Shown here: positions 1 through 40,257 of the stretch, in pieces
Position numbering within the stretch: position 1 is the first letter of the stretch
How the letters are laid out: every line of letters starts with the position of its first letter
From: Candidatus Altarchaeota archaeon
GTDB taxonomy: Archaea > SpSt-1190
Assembly (NCBI GenBank): GCA_018220955.1
Contig: JAAOXV010000013.1
Span: 1-40,257 of the forward strand
Length of the DNA stretch: 40,257 bases
Reading direction: 5' to 3'
The notes under the pieces: model-generated
Databases searched by the model: none
Told to the model about the DNA's origin: nothing
The model's input: the letters and a program-made list of their open reading frames with translations, nothing else
Program-made: the position numbers and the translations under genes

Positions 1-408
1 ATTGAGGCAAGAAAAGCTGGCATAGACTGTCAGGTTATACATGCACCCTCGGTCATAAACGTTATCTCACGAACTGGGCTTTCTTCTTACAAGTTTGGTC
101 GGATAGTTACACTCTCAAAACCATTTGAGTCTGATAAAAAGAAAATCGAATCAAATCTCAAGACTGACCTGCACACACTTGTCCTGCTAGACCCTGTTAT
201 TGATATGCAAATGGGTCTAGCTATCCTCAGTCAATTCAATATCAAATCCAAACTAATTGCATGTGCAAGACTTGGAACCAAAACAGAAATGATAAAATAT
301 GCATTAGCAGCAGAGCTGGAAAAAATAGATTTTGGGGACCGCCCGCATTGTTTGATTATTCCGGCAAAGCTTCAATTCTTTGAGCAAGAATTTCTCGAGC
401 TATTTTAG
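1..408 (+). CDS. dphB: Diphthine synthase, C-terminal part (5' end outside window)
   Basis: Frame 1 is open from base 1 to the stop at 408. 'GLSSYKFGRIVTL', 'LHTLVLLD' and the C-terminal 'IDFGDRPHCLIIPAKLQFFE' match archaeal DphB. Confidence 0.9.
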   Translation: MEARKAGIDCQVIHAPSVINVISRTGLSSYKFGRIVTLSKPFESDKKKIESNLKTDLHTLVLLDPVIDMQMGLAILSQFNIKSKLIACARLGTKTEMIKYALAAELEKIDFGDRPHCLIIPAKLQFFEQEFLELF

Positions 409-1043
409 CACTCGCCTGTTTCAGTAATTTGTCTGACCCAAACATCTTGTTCTTGATAGACAGCGGTCCCATTGAATATTCTATAATTTGTTTGGTCGAT
501 ACATCTTTCATCGACTAGCTCATCCACACTGTCAATCAGACCTTCTAATTCAGACCAATCTAGCTCAGGTAGAAGAAGGCTAAAATTGAATTTAGCTGAG
601 ATATGGTGTTCGCTTGTGATTTCTCTTGAAATAGTGAGTATGTTTTCATTAAGTGCAAGATTGACCCTCCAAGCACCAGAATAACGACCTAATTCATTGA
701 TTGCAATCTGGTGAACAAAAAAAGCTGTTGTATAATCGTCATCCTGTTCTTCACAAGGGATACCGATAAAATCCCGCTCGCCGATAGAGATTAAGCCACA
801 ACCGCCAAGACCGCCACGTCTAAGAATATTCTTGGCTGCCTCTTGTGCCCAACTTTCCTGACTTAGCTCAGCATATCTTTGAGCGTTCCTGCCCATATAC
901 ATTAGGTCGACCAAGTTCATATCATCAGCGCTTGTTTCAAGTATTCGGGTTTCTTCTGACATATAAACAATATACAGGGCTCCAACTACACCTAACAACG
1001 CACCAGCGAGTATTGCCACCATCTGAGCTCCAATACCTTTCAT
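405..1043 (-). CDS. Small membrane-anchored pilin-like protein (MKGIG.. N-terminus, 4 Cys)
   Basis: 212-aa ORF, N-terminal hydrophobic helix after MKG, last gene of the minus-strand operon; converges on dphB. Confidence 0.75.
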   Translation of the reverse strand: MKGIGAQMVAILAGALLGVVGALYIVYMSEETRILETSADDMNLVDLMYMGRNAQRYAELSQESWAQEAAKNILRRGGLGGCGLISIGERDFIGIPCEEQDDDYTTAFFVHQIAINELGRYSGAWRVNLALNENILTISREITSEHHISAKFNFSLLLPELDWSELEGLIDSVDELVDERCIDQTNYRIFNGTAVYQEQDVWVRQITETGEC

Positions 1044-1462
1044 TCAACCACTTCCTCCAGACCTGAGTAGATTATTAGTGAACCTCCGGGTGGTATGGCG
1101 TGAATCGCCATTGCTCTACCGCCATCACCAGTCGAGCTGATTATGCTTCCTGACTGATTGAGCAACACAAAATTCTCACCATAGCTCATTAGCTCGATTG
1201 TTATGTTTCCTTTGCTAGTTAGCTCACTGTTGATTTTGACTGCCTCACTTAGCTGGTTAAAGAACGGCTCGCCACCACTTGTTCTCATAGTGATTGCTTG
1301 TAGATACGGATAACCAGGTTCAAGTCCTTGTCTTAGCTGGAACTCGGTTATTGACCTGAAATTATAGCTGATGGCTAGGATGATTCCTAGCGCAAGCGAA
1401 AATCCCATCATAAACATTGATGCAACATTTACTCCGGTTTTTGCTCCTGCTATACTTGCCAT
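1040..1462 (-). CDS. Pilin-like single-TM protein
   Basis: ORF 1040..1483; internal ATG at 1462 (MASIAGAKTGVNVASMF..) overlaps the upstream stop codon; N-terminal TM, extracytoplasmic tail. Confidence 0.7.
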   Translation of the reverse strand: MASIAGAKTGVNVASMFMMGFSLALGIILAISYNFRSITEFQLRQGLEPGYPYLQAITMRTSGGEPFFNQLSEAVKINSELTSKGNITIELMSYGENFVLLNQSGSIISSTGDGGRAMAIHAIPPGGSLIIYSGLEEVVE

Positions 1463-2238
1463 TAGACTTCGCCTCCATACCAATCAGCTTGCCCAACTAG
1501 CTCGCGCATCCAGCCAGCTGTCTGTAACCACTTGTTTTCTGGGTCACATCCAGGTTTGACAGCTATTCCAAGATAACCTAGGTGATTTGAGCCACTGGAT
1601 TCTATTGTGACTGGCAGGATATAGTATGCCATAGTGGTTGGTTGACATGTGCTGATAGCCCCGATACCACGGTCATTCTCAGCCTGTTTTGTGATATCGC
1701 TTATAAAATCGCAATAACCTGCCTGCAAGTCCCGATAACCTTCGCAAATCCCGGTTGCATCCATCATAGTCTCGCCACCGCTTCTGAACGGAAATCCCCC
1801 ATCTAAATCATCAACATAGCTGTGAATTAAGCTAGTCATTTCTCCAAGTATACAGCTGTCGATCAAAGGAGCAAGAAGGTCAACCTGAGAATTAATTTCA
1901 GCTGAAAATTCTTTTGAACCATCTTTCCAACCATCTGGGGTTGAGTAACCAACAAGACATGTGGCCATATCAGCTGTCTGAATTTCACTCCACACCATTT
2001 CATCTGTGTTATGGTTATACAATACTCCGACCAGCTGATATGTTGGAATGACTGGCAGTTCTAACCCAGTGTTCACAATTCCATCCCCTGCCATCCAATG
2101 AGCTGAAAAAAACGCGATTCGAACAACAGCCCACTTTTGAATAGTTGATATTGTAATTGTGGAAAACATGGCTGCAATGCTGATAGACAATAAAGCGATA
2201 ACAATGATGCCAGCAAACCAACCGGTTGAACCTTTCAC
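1462..2238 (-). CDS. Pilin-like single-TM protein (MKGST.. N-terminus, 6 Cys)
   Basis: 258-aa ORF with MKG start and hydrophobic helix; overlaps its neighbours by a few nt. Confidence 0.75.
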   Translation of the reverse strand: MKGSTGWFAGIIVIALLSISIAAMFSTITISTIQKWAVVRIAFFSAHWMAGDGIVNTGLELPVIPTYQLVGVLYNHNTDEMVWSEIQTADMATCLVGYSTPDGWKDGSKEFSAEINSQVDLLAPLIDSCILGEMTSLIHSYVDDLDGGFPFRSGGETMMDATGICEGYRDLQAGYCDFISDITKQAENDRGIGAISTCQPTTMAYYILPVTIESSGSNHLGYLGIAVKPGCDPENKWLQTAGWMRELVGQADWYGGEV

Positions 2239-2645
2239 TCTATTACCTCCTGGTCAATTCCCTGTTCACCTGCACCACTCCAAAAAACGAACCGTTCATA
2301 ACCATCACCACTAAAGACAGAGTCGATTTGACCTGGATATGTGGCCCAGGCAAACTGATAGCTCTCGCCGTTTTGGCTTGGGGTGATGATTCCTGTTGCT
2401 GAGCTGTCGGGTGAGCTGATACGATATACTGATTTGATTGAGTCAAGAATAAGCTGAGAGTCGGAATGCATTCCAGATATGGTGGCACAGCTGGCATACT
2501 TACCAGTGTAAATTCCGAGATTGGTGACAAGCGTGGACCGCGCCATTAGTGATGACATGGCCGCAACAGCTATGAGTAGTGTACCAAATAAAAACAGGTT
2601 TTTGTAAAGGTCTGTTGATACTGCAACGCTCTCGTCCACTCCCAC
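2235..2645 (-). CDS. Pilin-like single-TM protein
   Basis: 136-aa ORF (GTG start), N-terminal TM, collinear in operon. Confidence 0.65.
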   Translation of the reverse strand: MGVDESVAVSTDLYKNLFLFGTLLIAVAAMSSLMARSTLVTNLGIYTGKYASCATISGMHSDSQLILDSIKSVYRISSPDSSATGIITPSQNGESYQFAWATYPGQIDSVFSGDGYERFVFWSGAGEQGIDQEVIE

Positions 2646-2678
2646 ATAGCCAGAACCCTGCCAGGATATTTATCTGTT

Positions 2679-3134
2679 TCAATAGCCTGTAAGCGAAATG
2701 GTTTCATCATTCAAATTGATTTTGGCTGTTCGCGTGAATCCAATTGGTGCCAGGAAAACTGTTTGATCTGGCTTAGTTGTTGCAAGTGCAGTACATCCAG
2801 ACAAGGCAGTGGTGAATCTTGGAATCATTACACACACAACTCCGTGTGAGCCAAAACATAGTTCGTTTATTTTTTCTTTGATGTCTTGTGGCACTTCCCA
2901 TCCATCATTTGCAGTATAGCTGATACCACTACAAGGCCCAATCAACACATAATAGTTGCCTGGAATAGTTACAAAAGCTTCATTTTGAATCTGGTCTCGC
3001 ATTTTTCTTGCAGTCAAGTCAAGTCGAGTGTTCTCGCCAGTCAGCAATCCAATAATCTGCTCAAGTTGAGCCGAAGAAATAAGAGCTACAAGCCCTAAAA
3101 TCAAGATAATGAATAGAGGGGTTATCCCTCGCAT
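2679..3134 (-). CDS. Pilin-like single-TM protein (MRGIT.., 4 Cys)
   Basis: 151-aa ORF, MRG followed directly by a hydrophobic helix. Confidence 0.75.
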   Translation of the reverse strand: MRGITPLFIILILGLVALISSAQLEQIIGLLTGENTRLDLTARKMRDQIQNEAFVTIPGNYYVLIGPCSGISYTANDGWEVPQDIKEKINELCFGSHGVVCVMIPRFTTALSGCTALATTKPDQTVFLAPIGFTRTAKINLNDETISLTGY

Positions 3135-3135
3135 T

Positions 3136-3573
3136 TCACCACATCCCGCTTGCTTCCATTATATCATTGGTAGCAGTATGGCATCTGTCTGGATCAAAGT
3201 ATTGATTCAGCTGAACTTCAGAGACAAATCCCTTTTTCCAGAGATACACAGCGCAATCACACGGATTAAGAACTTCACCTTCTTCAAATTCTTCGCGTGT
3301 GAAATACTTGGTGGTCAATGCTGCTGCAGAGACACTTGCTTTTGCCAGATTGGTTTCATCAATTGTGGATTCCACAAAACCATTGGTTTCCCAAGTCCTG
3401 CAAAAAGTTGTTAGATAATTTTCCGCGTTTCCTATCTCTATTTCACCTAGCCAATCATCAAAGGTCTGGGTTGCCTGGGTTTTTGAAAGCAGTTGATACA
3501 TTGTGATTCCAACTACCAATGCCAGTAAAAGTGTGATAATAATCCAAATCGGTTGTGATGCTTGACCTCTCAT
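3136..3573 (-). CDS. Pilin-like single-TM protein (MRGQA.., 4 Cys)
   Basis: 145-aa ORF, MRGQ start resembling a class III prepilin leader, followed by a TM helix. Confidence 0.75.
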   Translation of the reverse strand: MRGQASQPIWIIITLLLALVVGITMYQLLSKTQATQTFDDWLGEIEIGNAENYLTTFCRTWETNGFVESTIDETNLAKASVSAAALTTKYFTREEFEEGEVLNPCDCAVYLWKKGFVSEVQLNQYFDPDRCHTATNDIMEASGMW

Positions 3574-3581
3574 TTTGTCAC

Positions 3582-4430
3582 CTAGCTAAGTTTAAACGGA
3601 TTTGATATTAATGCATATGCATCCTCTGAATTCTTGAGTGCTGCGGTGATTTTGTTTTGTTGATCGATAACATCTTTACACATATAGGCTAGTGCCTCAC
3701 CACAACTGTTGTCAAAAAAGCCCTCAACAAGACCTATTACATAGTCTTCATCTTCAAGAGAACTCATGTCTATTTCTACAATATAATTATTAACACAATC
3801 CATACAAATAATCAGGTTTGGACATAATGAATCTGGACACCAGCTTGCTAGGATGACCGCCTTTTTTTCTATATTAGCCAAGGACTTTACTACACCTAAT
3901 GGAGAAATTGTTGAGATTCTCCGAATCGGGTCATCTTCTGGAACATCATTCTTTAGCTGTTGTAAAAAGGCTAGGTACTCATTTTCAATCGCGCTGATTA
4001 TGGTTGTGCTTGGTGAAAAGCCCTGACCAGGCGCAGATGTTTGCCCCCATGTTGAACATTTTAGAACAAGACTGGTAAATACAGTTTGTTGGTCAGAAAT
4101 CACCGATGCTTCAATACCTTCAATCGTATTTACCAGCTTGTTATCAATCAACCCACCTCCTGATGATAGAGCACACTCAAGCGGACTATCACATTTTAGT
4201 TTGTGTTCAAAATAGAGTGCCAAATAAGAGCGCTCTTGTTGGGTGATTTGTGCTGACCCCATGGTCACTGAGCTGAGTATCTTGGTTTCCATTGATGCGA
4301 AGCCAAGCTTTGATTGAAGCGGGTTAGAGATTCCAACACCAAAATTAAAAATAAAGATTAAGACATTTATGATTATGATTGCAGTGACGACCCCTACTGC
4401 TAACCGAATGGTTGAATTTACTTCAGTCAT
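3582..4430 (-). CDS. Membrane-anchored Cys-rich protein
   Basis: 282-aa ORF, N-terminal TM, ectodomain with 'CPDSLCPNLIICMDC' cluster. Confidence 0.75.
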   Translation of the reverse strand: MTEVNSTIRLAVGVVTAIIIINVLIFIFNFGVGISNPLQSKLGFASMETKILSSVTMGSAQITQQERSYLALYFEHKLKCDSPLECALSSGGGLIDNKLVNTIEGIEASVISDQQTVFTSLVLKCSTWGQTSAPGQGFSPSTTIISAIENEYLAFLQQLKNDVPEDDPIRRISTISPLGVVKSLANIEKKAVILASWCPDSLCPNLIICMDCVNNYIVEIDMSSLEDEDYVIGLVEGFFDNSCGEALAYMCKDVIDQQNKITAALKNSEDAYALISNPFKLS

Positions 4431-4915
4431 ATAACTCCTCCTGGTGACCCGCTCATTATGTCGCGAGCTATACTCATGATTATCTGGTCTTTCTCAAGCT
4501 CATCTAGCTCGCCATCAACCGGCGGCAGTGATAATCTTATTCCAATTAGCTCTTCTATTTCACCAGCTCTAGTGTCTCTGTCCTGCCCTGCATCTATGAG
4601 CTCAAGGTAAATCGCACAACCGAGCTTGCATTTTGTATAATCAGTACCACAATTCAAACTAGTGCTTCCGTATGTGGAATACAGCTTTAGGTCAGACTTG
4701 TATGTTTCCCAAGCAGCCCTTGTGAAATAACCACTGTAAAACTCACCGCATGCAGTTTCAAGTGCGTTTGAATCACCTGTTCTAAAATACCAACCTGTTT
4801 CAATGTCTATACCCATCTTGACTTTTCCGAGTGCTTGAAAACTCACACCCGACATTACAAGTGCTATCAAAATACCTACAATCAATCCGACATGGATGGT
4901 TTCAATACCTTTCAA
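4427..4915 (-). CDS. Pilin-like single-TM protein (MKGIE.., 4 Cys)
   Basis: 162-aa ORF; MKGIETIHVGLIVGILIALVMSG leader/helix. Confidence 0.75.
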   Translation of the reverse strand: MKGIETIHVGLIVGILIALVMSGVSFQALGKVKMGIDIETGWYFRTGDSNALETACGEFYSGYFTRAAWETYKSDLKLYSTYGSTSLNCGTDYTKCKLGCAIYLELIDAGQDRDTRAGEIEELIGIRLSLPPVDGELDELEKDQIIMSIARDIMSGSPGGVI

Positions 4916-4919
4916 ACCA

Positions 4920-5477
4920 TCACCTCAGGAGCTTGCCTGAGCATGCAGATTCAATCATGTTTGAGTCAACCGCGTTTGGTTTACATGGACTGCTGATGAC
5001 TTGAATCATACCTTCAAAACACTGAATTTCGTCATCTGGACAGCTTGCATGACAGAGCTCATATGTCCTGATTATGTTTGAGCAAGCGTTTATGCATACT
5101 GAAATCTCATCTGATTGGATGTATCCATCGCCAGCACAGTGTCTGGTCTCCTCACCAGAATAACATTCAGTTGCATATTCTTCTATTATCTCACCGCAAC
5201 AGCGCCGCAGGTCTTCATATGGTTTCATCATATCATGAATCTTGAAAGTTTCCAAAATCTCTTTTGCATTGTATTTTTGTGAGCCGGCTGATAACCAGTC
5301 TGAACAGATAGTTTGCATATCAATTGGGTTCATTCGATTGCTCTGTGACTCACCTATCTTCCAAATATTTTCTATTCCCAGGCTGCTCTGACCGATTATT
5401 TTAAACCCGAGTATAAGTAAGGTGCCTGCGATGATTATGCCCATAACAACTGGAATGATTTGACCTATATCTGACAT
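4920..5477 (-). CDS. Single-TM protein with 12-Cys ectodomain
   Basis: 185-aa ORF; N-terminal TM then Cys-dense region. Confidence 0.75.
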   Translation of the reverse strand: MSDIGQIIPVVMGIIIAGTLLILGFKIIGQSSLGIENIWKIGESQSNRMNPIDMQTICSDWLSAGSQKYNAKEILETFKIHDMMKPYEDLRRCCGEIIEEYATECYSGEETRHCAGDGYIQSDEISVCINACSNIIRTYELCHASCPDDEIQCFEGMIQVISSPCKPNAVDSNMIESACSGKLLR

Positions 5478-5510
5478 TATTTTGAATGAGCTCTGCCGGT
5501 ATTTATTGAT

Positions 5511-5666
5511 TTATGTGGGTAAAAAACTCAATAATGGCTCGAGCATTCGTTTCAAAATCGGTGCAAGGAACTTTATTGTGATTAATATCCCGATAAGCAC
5601 AAGAACAATCAGGATTACGAATCTGAGCCCGCCCTCAGACATCTGGCCTTTTATTCCATCTGCCAT
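5511..5666 (-). CDS. 51-aa single-TM protein with KGQMSEGG motif
   Basis: Manual translation: MADGIKGQMSEGGLRFVILIVLVLIGILITIKFLAPILKRMLEPLLSFLPT; overlaps the end of the upstream gene by 16 nt. Too short for the ORF track. Confidence 0.65.
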   Translation of the reverse strand: MADGIKGQMSEGGLRFVILIVLVLIGILITIKFLAPILKRMLEPLLSFLPT

Positions 5667-6025
5667 GTATGAACTATTGTGCCCTGATAGTAAAGGTTTA
5701 TTCTTTCAGCGACAGAGAACTGTTCTATCGGAATTTCTATGACAGTCATGCTTCCTGCTGGCATATTGTTTGGAATATCTATCAGAGCTTCACCAGTGTT
5801 TGTCACCACCATAATCTCAAGCTCGCCACCAGCAACAGGCATATCGGGTATGATTTTCAGAAGATTGCCGGAAAGCCGATAATAGAATTGACTGTCACCA
5901 ACAGACAGGACCTCGATATCCCTTGCCTGAAGCATGAATACGATTGACAGGCTGGCTATTATCAAAATCACTATAACCACCATGCCAGCAATCCGCTTGA
6001 ATCCTTGTTCACTCATCTTTTCCAC
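5651..6025 (-). CDS. Single-TM protein, operon member
   Basis: 124-aa ORF, hydrophobic N-terminal helix, overlaps neighbours. Confidence 0.7.
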   Translation of the reverse strand: MEKMSEQGFKRIAGMVVIVILIIASLSIVFMLQARDIEVLSVGDSQFYYRLSGNLLKIIPDMPVAGGELEIMVVTNTGEALIDIPNNMPAGSMTVIEIPIEQFSVAERINLYYQGTIVHTWQME

Positions 6026-6348
6026 CCTATATCAGTGACCTGAACACAGACCGAGCTGTCTTGTTTCCAGGCTTCTATCTTGTATTGCTTGCCGACAGTG
6101 AGTTCAAATTCTCCTTGAAAATCAAGTGGTGACTCGCCGCATCTCGCATAGCTGGCCTGAAAGAGATCGAGTAAATCCATTTTGGTCTTGGGCACAAATA
6201 TCCCGGTTGATTCGCCTGAGCTATTGGCATCTTCAATCAGACTCTGAATTGAGATTTCACCTGTGTCAGAATGTGTATTGATATAGCTAACAAGAAAAAC
6301 AAAGAAAACTAGTGCTAGTATAATGGTCACGATTGCATCGAGTTCCAT
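6013..6348 (-). CDS. Single-TM protein, operon member
   Basis: 111-aa ORF, N-terminal TM (AIVTIILALVFFVFLVSYI), 2 Cys. Confidence 0.7.
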   Translation of the reverse strand: MELDAIVTIILALVFFVFLVSYINTHSDTGEISIQSLIEDANSSGESTGIFVPKTKMDLLDLFQASYARCGESPLDFQGEFELTVGKQYKIEAWKQDSSVCVQVTDIGWKR

Positions 6349-6458
6349 TATATCCCTCCAAGTGCACTAGAGATTTTTCCAAATATCTTTAGTCCAAAAG
6401 TCAGAAACAGCAGTAACAATACAACTGCGCCAACCATCCAGATTGCTTTTTCCTCCAT
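6348..6458 (-). CDS. 36-aa single-TM protein, operon member
   Basis: Manual translation: MEEKAIWMVGAVVLLLLFLTFGLKIFGKISSALGGI; its TAA overlaps the next ATG (TAATG). Confidence 0.6.
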   Translation of the reverse strand: MEEKAIWMVGAVVLLLLFLTFGLKIFGKISSALGGI

Positions 6459-6469
6459 TTTTACACCTC

Positions 6470-6664
6470 CTATATTCTAGCTCCTATCATTTCACCAACA
6501 CTTGATGCCATTGCAGTTACTTTTGTTTTTAGCTGAGTAGCGGCCAAGCTTGCGAGCCCAGACATAAATCCAGACCCCAGTGACCTAAATATAACAATGA
6601 TGGTGGCAAAAGCGATTAACAATCGTAAAAGTGCCATTATCGGAATTTCTGTTTTTTCACTCAT
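6470..6664 (-). CDS. 64-aa membrane protein, operon member
   Basis: ORF with central hydrophobic helix and a glycine/alanine-rich second half. Confidence 0.7.
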   Translation of the reverse strand: MSEKTEIPIMALLRLLIAFATIIVIFRSLGSGFMSGLASLAATQLKTKVTAMASSVGEMIGARI

Positions 6665-6859
6665 TCAACCGACCCCCAGTCCTAGAAAACCTTTGCTGAT
6701 TCCAGATAATCCAGCTGATAGAAACTGACCTGACCCAGCTATCTGGAGAAAGAACCATCCGCCAGCCATGAATAAAGAGACGATTGCACCTATTTTGACA
6801 AGCGATATTGCAGATTCCAGCAGAAACGGGACTGTGTTCAAATAGTCTTCCAAGCTCAT
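6665..6859 (-). CDS. 64-aa membrane protein, operon member
   Basis: MSLEDYLNTVPFLLESAISLVKIGAIVSLFMAGGWFFLQIAGSG..; stop adjoins the next gene; GTG at 6868 is an alternative start. Confidence 0.7.
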   Translation of the reverse strand: MSLEDYLNTVPFLLESAISLVKIGAIVSLFMAGGWFFLQIAGSGQFLSAGLSGISKGFLGLGVG

Positions 6860-6860
6860 A

Positions 6861-7010
6861 TTATGCACCTATTGTATCAGATATCACCAGCATACTCTTA
6901 TAGATAATTGACTTGCCTTGGTTCAAAAAGAAAGTAGAGCCAGGACCAATCATTATCCAAAGCACCAATGCTATCACGACTATCATGATTATGAGTTGCC
7001 ATCCTTGCAT
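6861..7010 (-). CDS. 49-aa single-TM protein, operon member
   Basis: Manual translation: MQGWQLIIMIVVIALVLWIMIGPGSTFFLNQGKSIIYKSMLVISDTIGA; fills the gap between neighbours exactly. The tracked ORF 6898..7089 is the wrong frame. Confidence 0.65.
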   Translation of the reverse strand: MQGWQLIIMIVVIALVLWIMIGPGSTFFLNQGKSIIYKSMLVISDTIGA

Positions 7011-7208
7011 TTAACCACCTAGGAAATATCTTATCGGAGTTTTGCCGATTGTGTTCAATAGAGCCACTATTGGTGTGGTTGCCACCCAAGCTATCTGCAT
7101 CACTCCTTTTACGACGCCGGGCGGCACACCGAGTAATACAAATATAACTATTGATAACAAAATCAGCGCCGGAATTGCCTGAATCATCCAGTTTGTCGGC
7201 TGCTCCAT
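7011..7208 (-). CDS. 65-aa membrane protein, operon member
   Basis: ATG at 7208 overlaps the TadC-like stop (TGATG); MEQPTNWMIQAIPALILLSIVIFVLLG.. Confidence 0.7.
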   Translation of the reverse strand: MEQPTNWMIQAIPALILLSIVIFVLLGVPPGVVKGVMQIAWVATTPIVALLNTIGKTPIRYFLGG

Positions 7209-9133
7209 CACCACACCACCGAGGATGCCATGCCTCCGAATATCATGGCTACACACACGGTTGTGATAGCATAAACCACCACACCGACTGTTAACATGTT
7301 TCCTATATTTGCGTATATTGTCATTTTGTCCCATCCGTCCAGGAGTCCACCAACGAATGTGCCGAGTATTGTCATTGTAAGTAGTATGTATATTCCAATA
7401 ATAAGCTGTAGGAATGAGGGTTGGATGATGCCTTCTACATTGATAAACTGAGAAACATAGCTATAGCCAACCATCTCTCCGCCGACAAGTGAGCTGACCT
7501 GGCGGACAATCTGCATTAGGATATTGCTGGTTATCTCACCAAGCCCAACAATCGTGCCGGTGACGAGTGGAATCAAAAACATTCCCTGAAATTTCAGACC
7601 ACTCACTGAGTCAGACATCATATCAGTTATTTTGTCTTTTACATCCTGCATGTTTTTCAGATAACGAGATACATTAATGGCGGTCGAACTAGCGCTGTAA
7701 GGACCTTTTTCAGCACTCTTTAACAGAATCAACATAATATTTTTTATTAAGTTAGATGGGAAGCTCAACATTGCACCATGCTGTTCATCAAAAAGCGATT
7801 TTTCAAGTGGCCAGCCAAGTCGACGGACCCTGGTGGATGCAGCATGAAAAAACAGTTCGACCTCAGTTCCTTTCATCCTACCAGCTACGTCTTCAATTGC
7901 CTCTTCGATAGGGACTCCTTCTGACATAACGCTACCGAGCTGATAAAGTCCAGATGCAAATTCCTTTTCCAGTACCTCCACCCGCTTCTTTGTCTCTATA
8001 TTTTCCTGCGCCCAGCTAAGTAGATAAAGTCCAATCGGAAGGCCAATCGCAATTATGCCAGGCAAGGTGGAGACAGCTGGCGATGTATCTGAATGTACCA
8101 TTGGTATAATGATGTATGGATCACTCATAAACCACAATAATTGGATGGCTCCGAACAACAAGGCACTGAGCAGCATGAGCGGCCAGACATTATAGCTCTT
8201 GCCGAATAACCGGAGTCTGTATTTGGTTTTGCTATAAGTAATTTCAGAAAGATTGCTGGGCCGTTTGCCGAGAATATAGACGACTGTGAGCGCAAGTACG
8301 AGCGGAAGCACGAAATCATAAATAATAAACATTGGCGGGCCAAAGTTACCACTTGAAGCAAATATACTGATGATTGGTGCCATGACCAGCAACAAGACAG
8401 GTAGCATCACACCGAACGCGTTTGCTATCATGACTGGTGTGCCGAGTCCTCGTGCAAATCCCTCCATTACGCCCTTGGTTCCATCAAGCACGACTGACAC
8501 TGATTTCTCAAGTGTTCTCCTTTTCTTGTCCCCTGTTTCTCTCATTGAGCTGGCCACAAGATAAATGGCCTCTGAGAAATGCGAAGACCATTCCTTTGCT
8601 TCAAGTGAATAGTCTGAAAGTGCTTCTTGCATATCTGGTTTGTTTCTGGTTTCAACCTCCCACAGCAGCCGCTTGAATACCCTGCCCAGCGGGTCAGGTA
8701 AATTTGCAGCAGTGAATGCTACACTACTTTCTAGATTGGGCGTCACCTCCATTGCGATTACCAGATACATAATCGCCAAAGGCGATTGGCCGAGCAGCTG
8801 CATTCGTCTGATTCTTGCCAAATATTTTGGATAATACACAAAGCTGGCAAACACAAAGAGCGGCAGCAGAAATGCGAAAAAGCTGGTTATGTCAGAACCA
8901 GAAAGCAGGAAGATGACCGAAATCGGAAGAGAAAAGACAGCTGCAATCACGCCAAGTGAGACCGCGCATTCAAAGCTGGTTTGAATCTCTGCCATTCTTA
9001 ACTCCTTGTCAAAGTCTTCATATTTCCAATTGATGTTTAGAACTTCGTGTGCCTTTTTTGCAGCTCGCTCATATCTACCCAGATCCAGTTCCTGGTCTTT
9101 TAGGAAAGTCTCATAATAATGGCTTTTTTCCAC
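7208..9133 (-). CDS. TadC/FlaJ/GspF-type membrane assembly protein with two T2SF-like domains
   Basis: 641 aa, repeated arrangement of cytoplasmic helical domain plus paired TM helices; 'LYQLGSVMSEGVPIEEAIEDVA' is typical of T2SF; follows the secretion ATPase. Confidence 0.85.
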   Translation of the reverse strand: MEKSHYYETFLKDQELDLGRYERAAKKAHEVLNINWKYEDFDKELRMAEIQTSFECAVSLGVIAAVFSLPISVIFLLSGSDITSFFAFLLPLFVFASFVYYPKYLARIRRMQLLGQSPLAIMYLVIAMEVTPNLESSVAFTAANLPDPLGRVFKRLLWEVETRNKPDMQEALSDYSLEAKEWSSHFSEAIYLVASSMRETGDKKRRTLEKSVSVVLDGTKGVMEGFARGLGTPVMIANAFGVMLPVLLLVMAPIISIFASSGNFGPPMFIIYDFVLPLVLALTVVYILGKRPSNLSEITYSKTKYRLRLFGKSYNVWPLMLLSALLFGAIQLLWFMSDPYIIIPMVHSDTSPAVSTLPGIIAIGLPIGLYLLSWAQENIETKKRVEVLEKEFASGLYQLGSVMSEGVPIEEAIEDVAGRMKGTEVELFFHAASTRVRRLGWPLEKSLFDEQHGAMLSFPSNLIKNIMLILLKSAEKGPYSASSTAINVSRYLKNMQDVKDKITDMMSDSVSGLKFQGMFLIPLVTGTIVGLGEITSNILMQIVRQVSSLVGGEMVGYSYVSQFINVEGIIQPSFLQLIIGIYILLTMTILGTFVGGLLDGWDKMTIYANIGNMLTVGVVVYAITTVCVAMIFGGMASSVVW

Positions 9134-9166
9134 ATTTTCAAGTAAATGCCCAAGTATTTATCTCTT

Positions 9167-11371
9167 CTAGATGTTCTTACCAAGCCATCTTTCCCAACGG
9201 ACATAGACTTCTTTTGCATCAGCAGCGCCAAGCTCTTGTGAAACCGAGTCACTTATCATATGAAATATGTCATTTGATTGAACAACAAAACCTGCCTCGA
9301 GCAGCTCTGGTTTACCAGTCGAGTCAGCTACCTCGACCAACCTTTGTTTAATTTTGGCCCTGAGTTCGATATTATCCCAAACTTCATCAAAGTTACCGAC
9401 CCAAGCTCTAACTCGGCCAGCGATTGAGTTGATTACCTCGCTTTCTCCATCAAGCAAAACCTTGGTCGGCTCAATCCGGTCTGTCTTTGCATTATACTTC
9501 ATAAGGTCAACAAATCCGTGTTCCCTTAATGGATCATCTTCCCAGTGTTTGCGAACCTCGGTTATCTGAACCAGCCGACGAGCCTTATGCAGGCCGTCAG
9601 CAGTTTTGATTGGGTTCGCGACCAGTATTATGTCTGTTGCTTTAAAGCTGGTTCTTGGTATACCAAGGTCATTCACGACTCGGTCGAACACCCCATATGG
9701 TGAGTCGCCGTGTATGGTTCCAGCTACTACATTGGCCAGTGCACCCACTCGCATGGCCTCATATAATGCAATCGCTTCCTTGCTTCTAACCTCACCAATT
9801 ATGAGTGCACTGTCACCCAGACGCAAGCTAGTCCTGATGCCAGCAGCCGCATCCAGCTCGCTCTCCACACCTACAATCGGGCTCCTTACCTTCATTGGTT
9901 GGATATTATATCCCAACTCCATGAAATGTCTGACTGGTAGCTCAAGTGTGTCTTCGATTGTGATAATCCTATATCGCCTCATTATCTCTGTCATCAAGCT
10001 TTGTAGAACCGAAGTTTTCCCAGCTCCTCTTGTACCTGCGACCAGCATGGTTCTTGAACCATCAACAAAAAAGCTAATCAATCCGGCTGCGAGAGGTGAC
10101 ATCATTCCATGTTTGATGAATAAGGGTAAGGTCCAGGGTTTGGCACGATGTCTCCTAATTGCAAAGCTTAGCCCAAATGGACTCAGACTCTTGGTGATGG
10201 CTGCCACTCTGGCTCGAACCTGACCAAACTCGATATGAGTGTCTAAGACTGGATTGCTTTCATCGAGTGGTCTACCTGACTGTAATCTGAGTCTGGCCGC
10301 CCAGCTCTGAGTTTCCTCATAGGTTGGAAATATGTTAGTTTCACAGTCTTCTGCATCAGCATGATACACAAACACCGGATTTACTAGTGGTGCGTTTATG
10401 GTGATGTCCTGAATATGTGCATCCATTAACAAGAGCTCAAGCACACCAAAACCTACTGTTTCTCTAGTAATGATGTCTGCCAGCTTTTTCTTGTCAAGCT
10501 TGATTCGTCTATTATGTGCCTCTTCCTCAATCATATCTGCAGCTATGTTGTAGATTGCATCTCGTATGGCCTGCGGGTCCACCATTTCATCAGTTTTTGG
10601 TTTATACGCAATCAGACCTTCTTTGATTTTTTCAATTATGCTATATTCAATCTCGCTTAGCTTGAACTCAGGCGGGAGAATATGATAAAACAGTCTAACT
10701 CCTTCTGGTTTTCTAATTATGGTTACATCGGCCTCGCCGACCTTGTATGAATCTATTTCCTCACCGGCCGGATATTGGGCCATCAGCTTGGTGAATGTGA
10801 AATTAGGTCTAACACTTGGTCGGAATATTCGTCTATAGACTGTTCGATCACCTATTTTGTATCCTTCAAGCAGGGGCTGAACAAGCTTGATTAGCTGAAG
10901 TGATTCAAATGTTTCAATCAAGCCAGTCAGAATCTTTACATAATGAAATCGCCATTTTCGATAATTGGAATATACTTCTCGACCTGCCTCAATTTCCTGC
11001 CATCTTTTTTCTCTTTTTAGCTCAACATATGCACCAATTGGGTCTCTAATTGCAGTTCTTGAAATCATTTGCGCAAACTCAACCCACTCTTCCCCAATCG
11101 TGCAACCAGATGGTCTGACTTCTTCTGCACTCAGCTTCAAGCTATCAATCGAGTTTGCCAGCTCGACCAACATTCCAGTCTGCCTTTCATCATACTCACG
11201 TATTCGTCGCTCAATCAACACAAGTAAGTCCAGCTTCCTGAGCTTGCGAATAGCGAGTATGACTTGTTCCATACAGGCCTCGCTTTCCTCTATGGCTGGT
11301 GGAAACGGTTTTCCTGTCAGGTTCATCTCTAGAACTTTTTTATCCCCTACTTGCCTTGTTCGATAATCCAC
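9167..11371 (-). CDS. Type II/IV secretion (TadA/GspE/VirB11-like) ATPase
   Basis: Walker A 'GTRGAGKTS', 'IITIEDTLEL' (Asp-box region), 'ALIIGEVRSKEA' (Walker B), 'VAGTIHGDSPYGVFDRVV' (His box). GTG at 11371 sits about 25 nt from a TATA box; the tracked ORF uses TTG at 11386. Confidence 0.93.
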   Translation of the reverse strand: MDYRTRQVGDKKVLEMNLTGKPFPPAIEESEACMEQVILAIRKLRKLDLLVLIERRIREYDERQTGMLVELANSIDSLKLSAEEVRPSGCTIGEEWVEFAQMISRTAIRDPIGAYVELKREKRWQEIEAGREVYSNYRKWRFHYVKILTGLIETFESLQLIKLVQPLLEGYKIGDRTVYRRIFRPSVRPNFTFTKLMAQYPAGEEIDSYKVGEADVTIIRKPEGVRLFYHILPPEFKLSEIEYSIIEKIKEGLIAYKPKTDEMVDPQAIRDAIYNIAADMIEEEAHNRRIKLDKKKLADIITRETVGFGVLELLLMDAHIQDITINAPLVNPVFVYHADAEDCETNIFPTYEETQSWAARLRLQSGRPLDESNPVLDTHIEFGQVRARVAAITKSLSPFGLSFAIRRHRAKPWTLPLFIKHGMMSPLAAGLISFFVDGSRTMLVAGTRGAGKTSVLQSLMTEIMRRYRIITIEDTLELPVRHFMELGYNIQPMKVRSPIVGVESELDAAAGIRTSLRLGDSALIIGEVRSKEAIALYEAMRVGALANVVAGTIHGDSPYGVFDRVVNDLGIPRTSFKATDIILVANPIKTADGLHKARRLVQITEVRKHWEDDPLREHGFVDLMKYNAKTDRIEPTKVLLDGESEVINSIAGRVRAWVGNFDEVWDNIELRAKIKQRLVEVADSTGKPELLEAGFVVQSNDIFHMISDSVSQELGAADAKEVYVRWERWLGKNI

Positions 11372-11388
11372 TAAAGTCTCTGACAAAG

Positions 11389-33357: not shown

Positions 33358-34683
33358 GTGGTAAAAACCAAAACTGAGGGGCAAGAGCATAAAGCCAGTT
33401 CAAAAAAAACATCTAAAGATAAGGCAATTGCTCAAAAAGAAAAGAACGATTTGAAAAGCAATGTGGAACTTGGAAGAGAATTGGACTTATACATAACAAG
33501 CGAGCTTGTAGGACAGGGATTGCCATTACTCACTTCTAAAGGAGCTACCTTCAAAAGAGAAATTGAACGTTTTGTAATGGATGAAGAGATAGCAAGAGGG
33601 CATTTGCACACATCAACACCTATCATGGCGAAAAGTGATTTGTACAAAATATCAGGTCATTGGGCTCACTATAAGGACTCTATGTTCTGTGTGAAAATGA
33701 ATGATGAAACCTATGCCCTTAGACCTATGGCGTGTCCTTTTCATTTTTTGTTATATAAAAGAAAACCTAGAACATACAAGGAACTTCCATTAAAATACGC
33801 CGAAATAGCAACTCTTTTTAGAAATGAAAAATCAGGAGAACTTCGAGGTCTGGATAGGGTAAGACAATTTAATCTGGCTGATGCACATATCATCTGCAGA
33901 CCAGACCAGCTAGAAGAAGAGTTCAAGGAAGTTCTAAATTTAATTAATTATATTATGGAAACATTAAACATCACTGATATTTGGTACCGATTTTCCAAAT
34001 GGGATCCGAAAGACAAGGAAAAGTACATAGATGATCCTGCGGCCTGGGACGAATCACAAAAAATGATGAAATCAATTTTGGATAACTTAAAAATAAAATA
34101 TATTGAGGCTGATGGAGAAGCCGCGTTTTATGGACCTAAATTGGATATCCAATATAGGGATATTTATGAAAGAGAAAATACTTTGATAACAGTTCAGATT
34201 GATTTTGCTCTTCCATCTAGGTTTAACTTAACTTATGTAGATAAATCTGGAGATGAAAAAATACCTGTAGTGATTCACAGGTCATCTTCTGGCGCTACTG
34301 AAAGAGTTATGGCATATTTGTTGGAAAAAACTCAGGGGAAACTGCCTACATGGTTATCTCCAATACAAGCAATTGTTTTGCCAATTAGTGAGAAGAACGA
34401 AGCTTATTCAACAAAAGTTTTCCAAGAACTAAAAAAACGCAAGATCAGAGCTGAATTAGACTTTAGCCAAGAAACTATCGGTAAAAAAATAAGAAATGCT
34501 CAGCTAAACAAAATTAATTATATGATTATACTTGGTGATAAAGAACAAGAACAAGAACTTATTTCTGTTAGACGTAGAGATGGAAAAATTTACCAAGCTG
34601 TCAAGTTGAATGATTTTATCACAAGAGTTAGTGAAGAAATAAAAGAAAGAAAGGCAGAGCTTCATTACTCGCAACCGTTATAG
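33358..34683 (+). CDS. thrS: Threonyl-tRNA synthetase, catalytic + anticodon-binding domains only
   Basis: 'LRPMACPFHFLLYK', 'FRNEKSGELRGLDRVRQFNLADAHII', 'AAFYGPKLDIQ', 'VIHRSSSGATERVMAYLLE', 'IGKKIRNAQLNKINYMIILGDKE'; no TGS or editing domain. Confidence 0.92.
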   Translation: MVKTKTEGQEHKASSKKTSKDKAIAQKEKNDLKSNVELGRELDLYITSELVGQGLPLLTSKGATFKREIERFVMDEEIARGHLHTSTPIMAKSDLYKISGHWAHYKDSMFCVKMNDETYALRPMACPFHFLLYKRKPRTYKELPLKYAEIATLFRNEKSGELRGLDRVRQFNLADAHIICRPDQLEEEFKEVLNLINYIMETLNITDIWYRFSKWDPKDKEKYIDDPAAWDESQKMMKSILDNLKIKYIEADGEAAFYGPKLDIQYRDIYERENTLITVQIDFALPSRFNLTYVDKSGDEKIPVVIHRSSSGATERVMAYLLEKTQGKLPTWLSPIQAIVLPISEKNEAYSTKVFQELKKRKIRAELDFSQETIGKKIRNAQLNKINYMIILGDKEQEQELISVRRRDGKIYQAVKLNDFITRVSEEIKERKAELHYSQPL

Positions 34684-34955: not shown

Positions 34956-36062
34956 ATGAAAGAGTTTTATAGCCAGTCATTTAATGATGATGTGAGTCAG
35001 CTTAAGGCAATTGGACTAGTGGTTTCTAATCTTGTTGGTATCGGACTTATACTTCTACCATACCTGTTCCAACAGTCAGGACTTTTCCCGGCCTTACTTA
35101 TTATGTCGGCGGTTGCGATATTGCTCAATATTTTTAGCTATGTGTTGCTTGATTTGATAGACACAAAAGGAATGTTGGCTAATATAGAAGCAAAGCTCAA
35201 GTACAAACAGCTCGTACCGCTTTCACTCTTGCTTGTCTCAGTCGGTGCAATGGCCTCATACATTTTTGCATCTGGACAACAACTCTTTGCTTGGTTGAAT
35301 ATCGATCCGCATTATGGTAGCGCCCTGTTTTTTGTTTTGGCGGCTCTGTTGATACTCTGGGATTTCGGGCTTTCAGTTGAGATGTCGATGAATTTGGGAC
35401 TTTTACTGATGTTGGCACTGCTTGTGTCGATGGGAGTCAGCACCGGGCTTTCAGTGTGTCAGAACTGCATCTTTGGCACAGAGTTCAACCCAATCCTACT
35501 TATTTCTGTGTCTGCATTTGCATTATTTGGGCACTTTGCAATGCCACAAGTCATCAAGCTAGCCGGTAGTAAGGAAGCGGCAAAACAGGCCTTCTTTTCT
35601 GGATTTTTCCTAGCATTCATATTTTATGTTCTTTATGGTACACTTATCAGTACGGTTGCAATAGTGGAACCAGTCAGCACAGCCAGTCTTGCACTTATTT
35701 TCCCGCCAGCACTTGCTGCACTGATATCTTTGACAGCCTTGCTGGCATTTTATACTTCATTTATCGGTATTGGTGTCTCGACCGTCCACTTAATCAGAGA
35801 TGAAATGAAAATGCCGAAAAAAGCATCAGTCATACTTGTCTTGCTATTGCCAGCATTGCTCTATATATCTGTTAGAGAATATGCGCTCTTATCAATTATT
35901 GAACTGGTTGGAAAGTTCGGTGGCGGCGGGGTTTTGTTGTTTTCTGCCTTGGTCTGTTATGCACATTCAAAATCAGATACAGAAAAAAGCATTCCAAGTA
36001 TTGTTTCAAAAACTTTGTTCTTTTTGTTTTTAACTGCAGCTCTATGTGCGTTCATATTTTGA
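34956..36062 (+). CDS. APC-superfamily amino acid permease
   Basis: ~11 TM; 'GLVVSNLVGIGLILLPYLFQQSGLFPAL', 'ALFGHFAMPQVIKLAGSKEAAKQAFFSGF'. Confidence 0.8.
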   Translation: MKEFYSQSFNDDVSQLKAIGLVVSNLVGIGLILLPYLFQQSGLFPALLIMSAVAILLNIFSYVLLDLIDTKGMLANIEAKLKYKQLVPLSLLLVSVGAMASYIFASGQQLFAWLNIDPHYGSALFFVLAALLILWDFGLSVEMSMNLGLLLMLALLVSMGVSTGLSVCQNCIFGTEFNPILLISVSAFALFGHFAMPQVIKLAGSKEAAKQAFFSGFFLAFIFYVLYGTLISTVAIVEPVSTASLALIFPPALAALISLTALLAFYTSFIGIGVSTVHLIRDEMKMPKKASVILVLLLPALLYISVREYALLSIIELVGKFGGGGVLLFSALVCYAHSKSDTEKSIPSIVSKTLFFLFLTAALCAFIF

Positions 36063-36792
36063 TGACCTCTATTCCCACAAGTTCAGCTAGCTTAAGCACT
36101 TTTTGTCTATCTTGACTTTTCAGTCCTTTCCATTCGATTGCGAGCTTTTCTGGTCTTGGGACTGTCCGGTCAATCGCCTGTTCTAACATAGCTTGGTCAA
36201 ACGAGCCTATCCGATAGTCTGGGCACAGGTGTCCATAATGCATACCAGCTAAGACTTGTTTAGTGAATTTTGGTGCATAATGTGGACCGCCCACACCGAT
36301 AAGAGATTCTCCAACTAGCTCGGTGTCAAGCAAATGAACTATGGTGTCAGCGGCAGCTTTTAGTGCTCGCTGGTCCTTCCACTGTTTTTCTGTTGAACCA
36401 ACTTCAATAAACACGATTGGTAGTTCAAAACTAGGACCATGATGCGTTACCTCTAGACTAACCTCATAGCTTAGGGATTGACTTGTTTGTATTTTACTGA
36501 ATTTTCTGATAGCTTCGCTTACATACAAAGCAGGCGAGATGCTTAGTGTTTTGTCATTTCCACCAAAATCCGCAGTCCCCCAGTTTCCTGGTGAGTGGGC
36601 TGTTAAGCTTGGTCGTTCAGAAACACTCTTATGTGAGCTGGCCACCAGTATCAAATCCGCAGTTTCTTTTTCAAGCTCGGTCAAATCAACTATGCTTGAT
36701 TCAAACATTTTGACCTTTGTTCTCCCGGCCAGCTCTTGCTCAATTCCTTGACTTGCAAGGTTTCCTGAACTCCCTACCACTAATTTTTTCAC
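36052..36792 (-). CDS. dtdA: D-aminoacyl-tRNA deacylase DtdA (DTD2/GEK1 family)
   Basis: 'SSHKSVSERPSLTAHSPGNWG', 'EVTHHGPSFELPIVFIEVGSTEKQW', 'GVGGPHYAPKFTKQVL', 'GHLCPDY'. Confidence 0.95.
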   Translation of the reverse strand: MKKLVVGSSGNLASQGIEQELAGRTKVKMFESSIVDLTELEKETADLILVASSHKSVSERPSLTAHSPGNWGTADFGGNDKTLSISPALYVSEAIRKFSKIQTSQSLSYEVSLEVTHHGPSFELPIVFIEVGSTEKQWKDQRALKAAADTIVHLLDTELVGESLIGVGGPHYAPKFTKQVLAGMHYGHLCPDYRIGSFDQAMLEQAIDRTVPRPEKLAIEWKGLKSQDRQKVLKLAELVGIEVIKI

Positions 36793-38268: not shown

Positions 38269-38400
38269 ATGGTTAAGCCAACTGATTTTGTGGCCAGCTA
38301 TTCAAATATGGCTTTTTATTCAATTTTTGTCATGATTGGTGGAGTGTTCCTTACCGGTCTTTGGTTGGCGATTTTGTTTGTTTCAATATTTACAGGCTAG
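38269..38400 (+). CDS. 43-aa single-TM protein
   Basis: Manual translation: MVKPTDFVASYSNMAFYSIFVMIGGVFLTGLWLAILFVSIFTG. Confidence 0.5.
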   Translation: MVKPTDFVASYSNMAFYSIFVMIGGVFLTGLWLAILFVSIFTG

Positions 38401-38437: not shown

Positions 38438-40257
38438 GTGAAAAGATATGAGAGGCAGACAGGTTTGATAGACCAGAAAAAGTTGGCTGGCTCAAAAATA
38501 GTTATAGCTGGGCTTGGCGGACTTGGCTCGCCAGCTGCACTTTATTTGGCAGCTGCTGGTATTGGCGAGCTAGTTTTAATCGACCATGATAAACTGGAAG
38601 AGTCAAACTTGAACCGTCAGATTTTGTATTCAGAAAATCAAATTGGCGAGAAAAAGGTTAAGCTAGCTAAGCAAAGATTATTAGACCTTAATTCAAGCAT
38701 CAAGATAACTATACTTGACAAGATACCGGCAAAAATTGACGCAGATGTATTTCTTGATTGTCTTGATAATTGGACAGCCAGAAAGAAATTTTGGAAGCTT
38801 GCGCTTGAGTCAGGTGTCCTTGTTCACGGTGCTGTCGAACACGACAAAGGCGAGCTGGCGGTTATTATAGACAAAAAAAGTGCAGAACTGATTCTTAAAA
38901 AACAGAAGTCGGGCTGTCAGCGTATCCTTGGACCTGCAGTAGGTACAATCGGTTCAATGATGGCACTCAAGACACTTGAAATTCTTAAGAAAAAGCCGGC
39001 CAGCTCATATTTTCTTAGCTTTGATGGAAACGAGATTTCCAGATATCCAATCAATACTAGCTTAACCGTGCCAGACTGGGATATGATAATAGTCAGGTAT
39101 TCTGAAATCTGGACTAAGAGTGATATGACCAAGAGAAAAATGGAGCTAAAGCTTATCGACAATCTCAGAAAGGCAGTGCCAGATGCTAAAATCACACGAT
39201 TGCATGGTAGAATCTTGATTGAACCATATTCAGAAAACTTGCTTAAGTCAGCTGCCCAGGTCTTTGGTGTAAAATCTGTTAGTCCAGTCATCAAGCTTGG
39301 ACACGCAGAGTTTGAATCAGAGCTAACCAGACTTATTCCTATATTGGTTCCTGTCAATACCAGCTTTCGCATCACAGCCAATCGAGCTTGGAAGCAGTAT
39401 GCCACAAGCTCAACCGAGCTCAATAAACGATTTGGCCAACTTGTGCTTGAGCTTGTTGAGGGTGTAAGAGTTGATTTGACTTCAGCTCAGTTGAATTTGG
39501 AAATAGAGGTCAACAAGAACTCGGTTTTTGTTTTTACTGATAGGCGTGATGGACCGGGTGGACTTCCGCTTGGTGTTGGTGGTAAGCTACTTTTGCTCTT
39601 TTCTGGCGGACTTGATTCTCCGGTAGCTGCATACTTACTTGCAAAACGCGGAGTTGAGTCAGACCTACTGTTTTTGAATCCTCTTAGTGATGTGTTAGAA
39701 TCCAAGGTTTCTAATGTATATCATTCAATGAAATCCTGGTTGCCAGAAGCTCAGATGTTTGTGATAGACACAGCTAGCGCGGTTGACCAGATAAAACAAA
39801 AAGTGAACGAAGGCGAAAGACAAACTGTTCTGAAGAGACTATTATACCGAATAGCTGAAAGAGTTGCACTTGAACAAGGATATGACGCAATCGCTACAGG
39901 CGAGAGCCTTGGTCAAGCATCTTCACAAACACTTCAAAGCTTGGCAGTTATTCAACAAGCAATCAGCACAACTGTTATCAGACCTTTGATTGGGTTTAAC
40001 AAAAATGAGACTATTAGATTGGCAAAACAGATTGGAACCTATGATGTTAGCTCAGCTATTGAGGAGTTCTGCTCACTGGAATCCCACTCGAACGCATCAC
40101 CTGAAATAGCAGAGACGCTTAGACAGGAGACTAAGCTAGAGTTTGATATCGAACAACTTAGTGGGTCAATAAGAAAAGCAAAAAATGCCCCGGTCCCTGA
40201 CCTTAAGCCTGAAAGTATGACTGGACTTGAGCTTGTGAGGTTATGGGAAGGAATGCC
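38438..40257 (+). CDS. E1-like (MoeB/ThiF) adenylyltransferase fused to THUMP-PP-loop ThiI tRNA sulfurtransferase; 3' end outside window
   Basis: GTG 38438, frame verified open to the window end. E1: 'KRYERQTGL', 'IVIAGLGGLGSPAALYLAAAGIGELVLIDHDKLEESNLNRQILYS', 'DCLDNWTARK'. ThiI: 'IIVRYSEIWTKSDMTKRKMELKLIDNLRKAV', 'LLLFSGGLDSPVAAYLLAKRG', 'IATGESLGQASSQTLQSL', 'RPLIGFNKNETI'. Confidence 0.9.
   Translation, partial: MKRYERQTGLIDQKKLAGSKIVIAGLGGLGSPAALYLAAAGIGELVLIDHDKLEESNLNRQILYSENQIGEKKVKLAKQRLLDLNSSIKITILDKIPAKIDADVFLDCLDNWTARKKFWKLALESGVLVHGAVEHDKGELAVIIDKKSAELILKKQKSGCQRILGPAVGTIGSMMALKTLEILKKKPASSYFLSFDGNEISRYPINTSLTVPDWDMIIVRYSEIWTKSDMTKRKMELKLIDNLRKAVPDAKITRLHGRILIEPYSENLLKSAAQVFGVKSVSPVIKLGHAEFESELTRLIPILVPVNTSFRITANRAWKQYATSSTELNKRFGQLVLELVEGVRVDLTSAQLNLEIEVNKNSVFVFTDRRDGPGGLPLGVGGKLLLLFSGGLDSPVAAYLLAKRGVESDLLFLNPLSDVLESKVSNVYHSMKSWLPEAQMFVIDTASAVDQIKQKVNEGERQTVLKRLLYRIAERVALEQGYDAIATGESLGQASSQTLQSLAVIQQAISTTVIRPLIGFNKNETIRLAKQIGTYDVSSAIEEFCSLESHSNASPEIAETLRQETKLEFDIEQLSGSIRKAKNAPVPDLKPESMTGLELVRLWEGM

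Follow-up and report, generated by a model that had tools for sequence, protein, structure and literature searches.

The window analysed here, a stretch of 40,257 nucleotides of Candidatus Altarchaeota archaeon SpSt-1190 (GenBank assembly GCA_018220955.1), ends in a gene that joins an E1 adenylation domain of the MoeB/ThiF type to the s4U8 enzyme ThiI within one open reading frame. As judged from its relatives, the encoded protein is an E1-ThiI-rhodanese fusion whose tail would be a compact rhodanese. The modifications s4U8 and s2U34 usually come from separate enzymes, each with its own sulfur donor; in this polypeptide, the two tRNA sulfur pathways appear to be connected. Our preferred reading, to which we assign a probability of roughly 0.6, is that a single rhodanese persulfide would feed two outlets, namely s4U8 formation by the ThiI part and the production, by the E1 part, of a ubiquitin-like protein (Ubl) thiocarboxylate that serves NcsA in s2U34 formation.

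The frame runs from the GTG at 38438 to 40255 with zero stops and is unclosed where contig C45 (40257 bases), and with it the window, ends. This start is preferred over the TTG at 38336 upstream, since the relatives begin at a matching RY.RQ motif. Alignment with these relatives indicates that 48 residues (by G003) or 47 residues (by G002) are lost to the contig end. The source genome comprises 0.64 Mb in 77 contigs and is 90% complete. The preliminary description had proposed an E1-ThiI fusion in one polypeptide, and this is borne out by four Pfam domains lying in order in the single open frame, all exceeding their cut-offs (Table 1), while the stop between the domains near 39040 that would have separated them is not present in the frame. 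An assembly chimera, a frameshift or read-through can be ruled out, because the same joined frame occurs inside single contigs of two independent genera. Between RtcB and the fusion lies a possible 43-aa hydrophobic ORF (38269-38400, plus strand), which starts MVKPTDFVASYSNMAFYS.

Table 1. Features of the fusion gene and its product in the window
Feature	Position	Strand	Remarks
E1-ThiI-(rhodanese) fusion gene	38438..40255	+	GTG start; 606 codons; open at contig end
E1 adenylation domain, MoeB/ThiF type	38462..39040	+	residues 9-201; Pfam PF00899 ThiF, E 2.4e-40
Cys160	38915..38917	+	counterpart of E. coli ThiF Cys184 by alignment; present in G006 and G005, absent from G002
ThiI N-terminal ferredoxin-like domain	39083..39283	+	residues 216-282; PF22025 ThiI_fer, E 1.9e-12
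THUMP tRNA-binding domain	39350..39541	+	residues 305-368; PF02926, E 1.1e-7
ThiI PP-loop catalytic domain	39572..40141	+	residues 379-568; PF02568, E 2.2e-48
PP-loop SGGLDS	39602-39619	+	within ThiI PP-loop catalytic domain
Cys545	40070..40072	+	E. coli ThiI Cys344 position; conserved in all fusions holding that region
First strand LELVRLWEGM of C-terminal compact rhodanese	40226..40255	+	cut by contig end; from alignment with full-length relatives

The adenylation and PP-loop motifs are intact, as the preliminary description had stated: the GxGGLG nucleotide loop, the SNLNRQ arginine and the DCLDN aspartate are all present in the alignment of the E1 part to ThiF/MoeB. The best PDB match of the E1 part is E. 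coli ThiF (1zud, E 6e-27), the ThiI part matches B. anthracis ThiI (2c5s, E 1e-53), and the protein passes the NCBIfam model TIGR00342 ThiI with 266.2 bits against a cut-off of 264.5. The CxxC structural zinc pairs of MoeB/ThiF E1 enzymes are absent from every fusion examined. In E. coli ThiF, Cys184 is reported to link with ThiS; the aligned Cys160 is not essential to the fusion family as a whole, since G002 is devoid of this residue. Cys545 we take to be the equivalent of E. coli Cys344, based on alignment to ThiI structures together with general knowledge of the E. coli enzyme. None of the five ThiI-bearing fusions features the CxxC downstream of the PP-loop that marks Fe-S type archaeal ThiI, in which they differ from most archaeal ThiI compared. 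By these residues, the ThiI part is assigned an E. coli-type cysteine anatomy lacking the archaeal CxxC. The full-length model reaches a mean pLDDT of 78 and a pTM of 0.47, so that the predicted domains may be regarded as credible and their mutual arrangement not; a fold search with this model retrieves ThiI, ThiF, MoeB and Uba4.

Full-length fusions are found in G006 (JAAOXX010000072.1, 645 aa) and G002 (JAUUZA010000014.1, 647 aa), which belong to the same Altiarchaeota family but to two other genera, and are 44% and 43% identical, respectively, to the window protein over nearly its whole length, so that the one-frame fusion is seen in three genera. Moreover, G003 carries a ThiI-rhodanese half at the start of one contig and an E1 start at the end of another, and G004 a ThiI-rhodanese half at a contig start; both are probably the same fusion split by assembly. 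In G005, the E1 domain is joined directly to the rhodanese tail (292 aa), and ThiI was not found by family searches of the genome. This protein is a natural ThiI-less version, and the gene content suggests that its lineage lost ThiI and kept E1, rhodanese, Ubl and NcsA. In G001 (87% complete), neither E1 nor ThiI was detected, although Ubl and NcsA are present.

Among the matches listed for 397 archaeal genomes, none outside the family spans E1 and ThiI, and a pattern-based scan of 85,488 species (one genome per species), which may miss distant fusions, gave no such match beyond the G002 and G006 contigs. In the ThiI tree, the fused domains form one clade (SH-aLRT 94) that is nested in a wider ThiI-rhodanese group (98) and lies away from L013 and L017, which are ThiI proteins of the same class. 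Long ThiI frames considered as further fusions (L139, L140, L141, L031) encode ThiI, in some cases together with a rhodanese, and no E1 was recognised in them, while the candidate from an aenigmatarchaeote (L072) proved to be two overlapping genes for a PP-loop-only ThiI-like protein and ThiF. The latter locus (392-4282) encodes IscS, IscU, a cysteine synthase-like protein and this overlapping pair, and constitutes a separate-gene parallel to the fusion. Second ThiF-domain proteins with long N-terminal parts occur in G002 (L119, 1114-2220) and G006 (L120, 912-1877), with no link to Ubl or ThiI within the stretch fetched.

The relatives share a C-terminus of about 50 residues with an invariant cysteine in the consensus KYLFVCKxG. 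This persulfide cysteine is present in the full-length relatives, and the window sequence stops before it. Hence, the search for a rhodanese beyond position 40257 succeeded insofar as the relatives possess a compact one, while the end of the window gene itself lies outside the assembly; the window copy presumably ends like its relatives. The Pfam rhodanese match to the G002 tail (E 0.023) is below the cut-off, and genome searches of G002 and G003 again place a weak Pfam rhodanese match exactly at the fusion tail. Alignment of the tail by HHalign with MoeB- and ThiI-type rhodaneses gives a probability of 87%, and a profile of ten tail sequences retrieves mostly rhodaneses from the PDB, with E values of 0.001 and 0.007 for the top two. 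In the full-length model the tail is predicted as strand, Cys loop, helix and strand, whereas the model of the isolated tail is of low confidence (pLDDT 48). The same compact form is found on ThiI of other archaea (L132-L136), and larger rhodaneses with the same core on ThiI of still others (L138, L140, L141); the compact form lacks a stretch that L140 and L141 possess.

The genes next to the fusion connect it with tRNA 2-thiolation. In G003, the fusion stop (878), the start (875) and stop (1063) of a 62-aa Ubl and the start of NcsA (1056) interlock with overlaps of 4 and 8 bases. In G006, the order is fusion, a DUF123 gene on the opposite strand, Ubl, NcsA and Suf-type genes; in G002, fusion, DUF123 gene and Ubl are followed by the contig end; and in G005, E1-rhodanese precedes Ubl and NcsA. 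The Ubl of all four genomes ends in [RK]VWSGG. A search of the window genome for a GG-ending carrier of the MoaD/ThiS/SAMP kind, as the preliminary description had suggested, was successful: contig C77 (2268 bases) opens inside a Ubl (13-186; PF02597 above cut-off, C-terminus VWSGG), which overlaps with the following NcsA gene. The best match of this NcsA is NF047749 NcsA, below cut-off; it also matches the U34 thiolase 6scy and keeps the three Fe-S cysteines. Immediately upstream of its fusion gene, the window carries RtcB; in G002, RtcB and then transporter genes precede the fusion, and in G004 they precede the Ubl-NcsA pair. Because of this gene order in the relatives, C77 probably continues C45 across a gap estimated at about 150 bases, which would code for the 48 residues and the first part of the Ubl; the contig ends show no overlap of at least 8 bases, and the junction is drawn from gene order. 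In G004, MoeA comes after the ThiI-rhodanese piece, and Ubl and NcsA are located on another contig after RtcB and the transporter genes (L005/L093 and L092), so the fusion seems to have been displaced from Ubl-NcsA in this lineage.

With respect to the gene inventory, the fusion is the only E1 found in the window genome, the other match being a weak Rossmann hit, and the C77 gene is the only Ubl over cut-off. The genome also encodes IscS-IscU and a SufS-like protein, and no other rhodanese was found by family searches, on which all gene absences reported here rest at genome completeness values of 72-90%. The link to Urm1/Ncs6 logic drawn in the preliminary description is therefore supported, since the fusion of the relatives sits in a gene run with a GG-ending ThiS/SAMP-type Ubl and NcsA/Ncs6, while a single E1 and a single Ubl were found in the window genome. 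None of the seven genomes yielded a JAB protease, the presence of which would point to conjugation of Ubl to proteins.

In E. coli ThiI, sulfur is transferred from IscS onto the rhodanese Cys456 and Cys344 is used in addition, while methanogen ThiI and Ncs6 rely on three cysteines, two of them in a CxxC, with an Fe-S cluster (PMC5372739). Uba4, in turn, adenylates Urm1 and thiocarboxylates it through its own rhodanese (PMC7527816). Because the fusions hold the E. coli cysteine pair and are devoid of the CxxC of Fe-S ThiI/Ncs6, the sulfur of the ThiI part most likely arrives as a rhodanese persulfide, and since this pair is combined with a Uba4-like E1/rhodanese pair, one rhodanese serving both E1 and ThiI would be the simplest joint reading. 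The enzymatic steps, the sharing of one persulfide and the nucleosides made we infer as follows. A cysteine desulfurase of the IscS or SufS type would load a persulfide onto the cysteine of the compact rhodanese. At the first outlet, in cis, a tRNA bound by the THUMP and ferredoxin-like domains would be adenylated at U8 by the PP-loop, and Cys545 would help to release the sulfur, yielding s4U8. At the second outlet, the E1 part would adenylate the neighbouring Ubl at its C-terminal GG, and the resulting acyl-adenylate would react with the rhodanese persulfide to give a thiocarboxylate, in the manner of MOCS3/Uba4; Ubl-COSH would then leave and feed the neighbouring NcsA for s2U34 formation. 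The E1 outlet is supported by G005, which retains E1-rhodanese, Ubl and NcsA without ThiI, suggesting that E1 and Ubl can serve NcsA in its absence, and the ThiI outlet by the existence of ThiI-rhodanese relatives lacking E1. Several points count against this sulfur hub: the rhodanese is compact, scores below the Pfam cut-off and is modelled with low confidence in isolation, the end of the window copy lies outside the assembly, E1 and ThiI went undetected in G001, the zinc site that stabilises the structure of MoeB/ThiF/Uba4 is missing from the E1, and in G004 the ThiI-rhodanese piece adjoins MoeA with the Ubl-NcsA pair on a separate contig.

The preliminary description had sulfur passing from a Ubl thiocarboxylate to tRNA within this enzyme, which in these words is not supported. 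We consider it unlikely that the E1-made Ubl-thiocarboxylate, rather than a rhodanese persulfide, is the s4U8 sulfur donor of the ThiI part in the same chain. The covalent joining of E1 and ThiI and the adjacent gene for a GG-ended Ubl are in favour of such a channel; on the contrary, the ThiI part keeps the two-cysteine, rhodanese-fed anatomy of E. coli, without the CxxC that provides cluster ligands in Ncs6/TtuA, a rhodanese presumably suffices for L132-L136, which have no E1, the adjacent NcsA is the normal and obvious user of Ubl-COSH, and in G005 the set of E1, Ubl and NcsA persists in the absence of ThiI. Rather doubtful, too, is a wider extension according to which the Ubl thiocarboxylate hands sulfur directly to the ThiI part, s4U8 then arising by a ubiquitin-like carrier route in a single chain, or the persulfide is switched between U8 and U34 as a regulated branch point. 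It is likewise improbable that co-expression or stability alone joined E1 to ThiI-rhodanese, each part acting separately, with the rhodanese feeding only ThiI and Ubl drawing on sulfide or another donor. Such a purely physical coupling would be consistent with the ThiI-rhodanese relatives without E1 and with the use of sulfide by some archaeal thiolases (PMC5372739); however, the rhodanese stayed on E1 when the G005 lineage lost ThiI, which argues that it serves E1, and no other rhodanese was found in the window genome.

In E. coli, ThiF works together with ThiI on ThiS, and a role of the E1 part in cofactor synthesis, acting on MoaD for molybdopterin or on ThiS for thiazole, has accordingly to be weighed. 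The MoeA gene next to the ThiI-rhodanese piece of G004 and the MoaD-MoaE proteins of G004 and G001 would fit this role, yet it is highly improbable, given that MoaE was not found in the window genome (G000), G002, G003, G005 or G006 and that Ubl and NcsA form a coupled gene pair. Matches to Thi4 and ThiG were discarded, as they are short and partial, of the kind given by other barrel or flavin-binding proteins.

Several known systems share traits with the fusion. Like E. coli ThiI, the relatives carry THUMP, PP-loop and rhodanese in one chain with a Cys344/Cys456-type pair, but the E1 corresponding to the separately encoded ThiF forms the N-terminal part of the chain, the rhodanese is of the compact form, and the surroundings, with Ubl and NcsA, are those of tRNA 2-thiolation instead of thiamine. 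Like MOCS3/Uba4/MoeZ, they unite E1 and a C-terminal rhodanese in one chain, with a GG-ended Ubl and Ncs6 as client; in contrast to that layout, which G005 matches exactly by its rhodanese directly after E1, the fusion has a whole ThiI in between, no Zn site and a compact rhodanese. E1, Ubl and an Ncs6-family thiolase also form a set in the Haloferax UbaA-SAMP2-NcsA and the TtuC-TtuB-TtuA systems, although UbaA and TtuC are fused to neither ThiI nor a rhodanese. The archaeal proteins L132-L136 are the nearest relatives of the ThiI-rhodanese part and share its compact tail, but they have no E1 domain, and unlike at the fusion loci no Ubl or NcsA was recognised in the stretches fetched. Methanogen ThiI is an archaeal s4U8 enzyme as well, though its [3Fe-4S] cluster needs a CxxC and a third cysteine, and it has no rhodanese (PMC5372739).

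In the portion considered, the account of archaeal E1 fusions by Makarova and Koonin lists fusions with a TBP-like domain, Ubl and Jab, besides E1-ThiI gene links and rhodanese-ThiI fusions, and contains no E1-ThiI fusion (PMC2948915). MoaD-MoeB and MoeB-rhodanese are among the fusions named in a survey of archaea, in whose main text ThiF, THUMP and thiouridine do not occur (PMC11237513). Hence, the parts of the fusion are known, and the E1-ThiI-rhodanese architecture appears to be unreported in the portions of the open-licence literature consulted. From which donor archaeal ThiI and Ncs6 obtain their sulfur is an open question (PMC5372739). As an E1, an s4U enzyme and a presumably shared rhodanese stand beside Ubl and NcsA, with a ThiI-less version at hand, the shared-persulfide hypothesis is testable with few proteins.

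Elsewhere in the window, a minus-strand cluster (405-11386), in which several short proteins with hydrophobic, pilin-like N-termini precede a large membrane protein and a Walker-motif ATPase, resembles type IV pilus or archaellum-type secretion. The plus strand at 33358-34683 encodes a protein of 441 aa that resembles aminoacyl-tRNA synthetases and is apparently a ThrRS lacking the editing domain at its N-terminus, and a D-aminoacyl-tRNA deacylase-like gene lies nearby on the minus strand (36052-36792).
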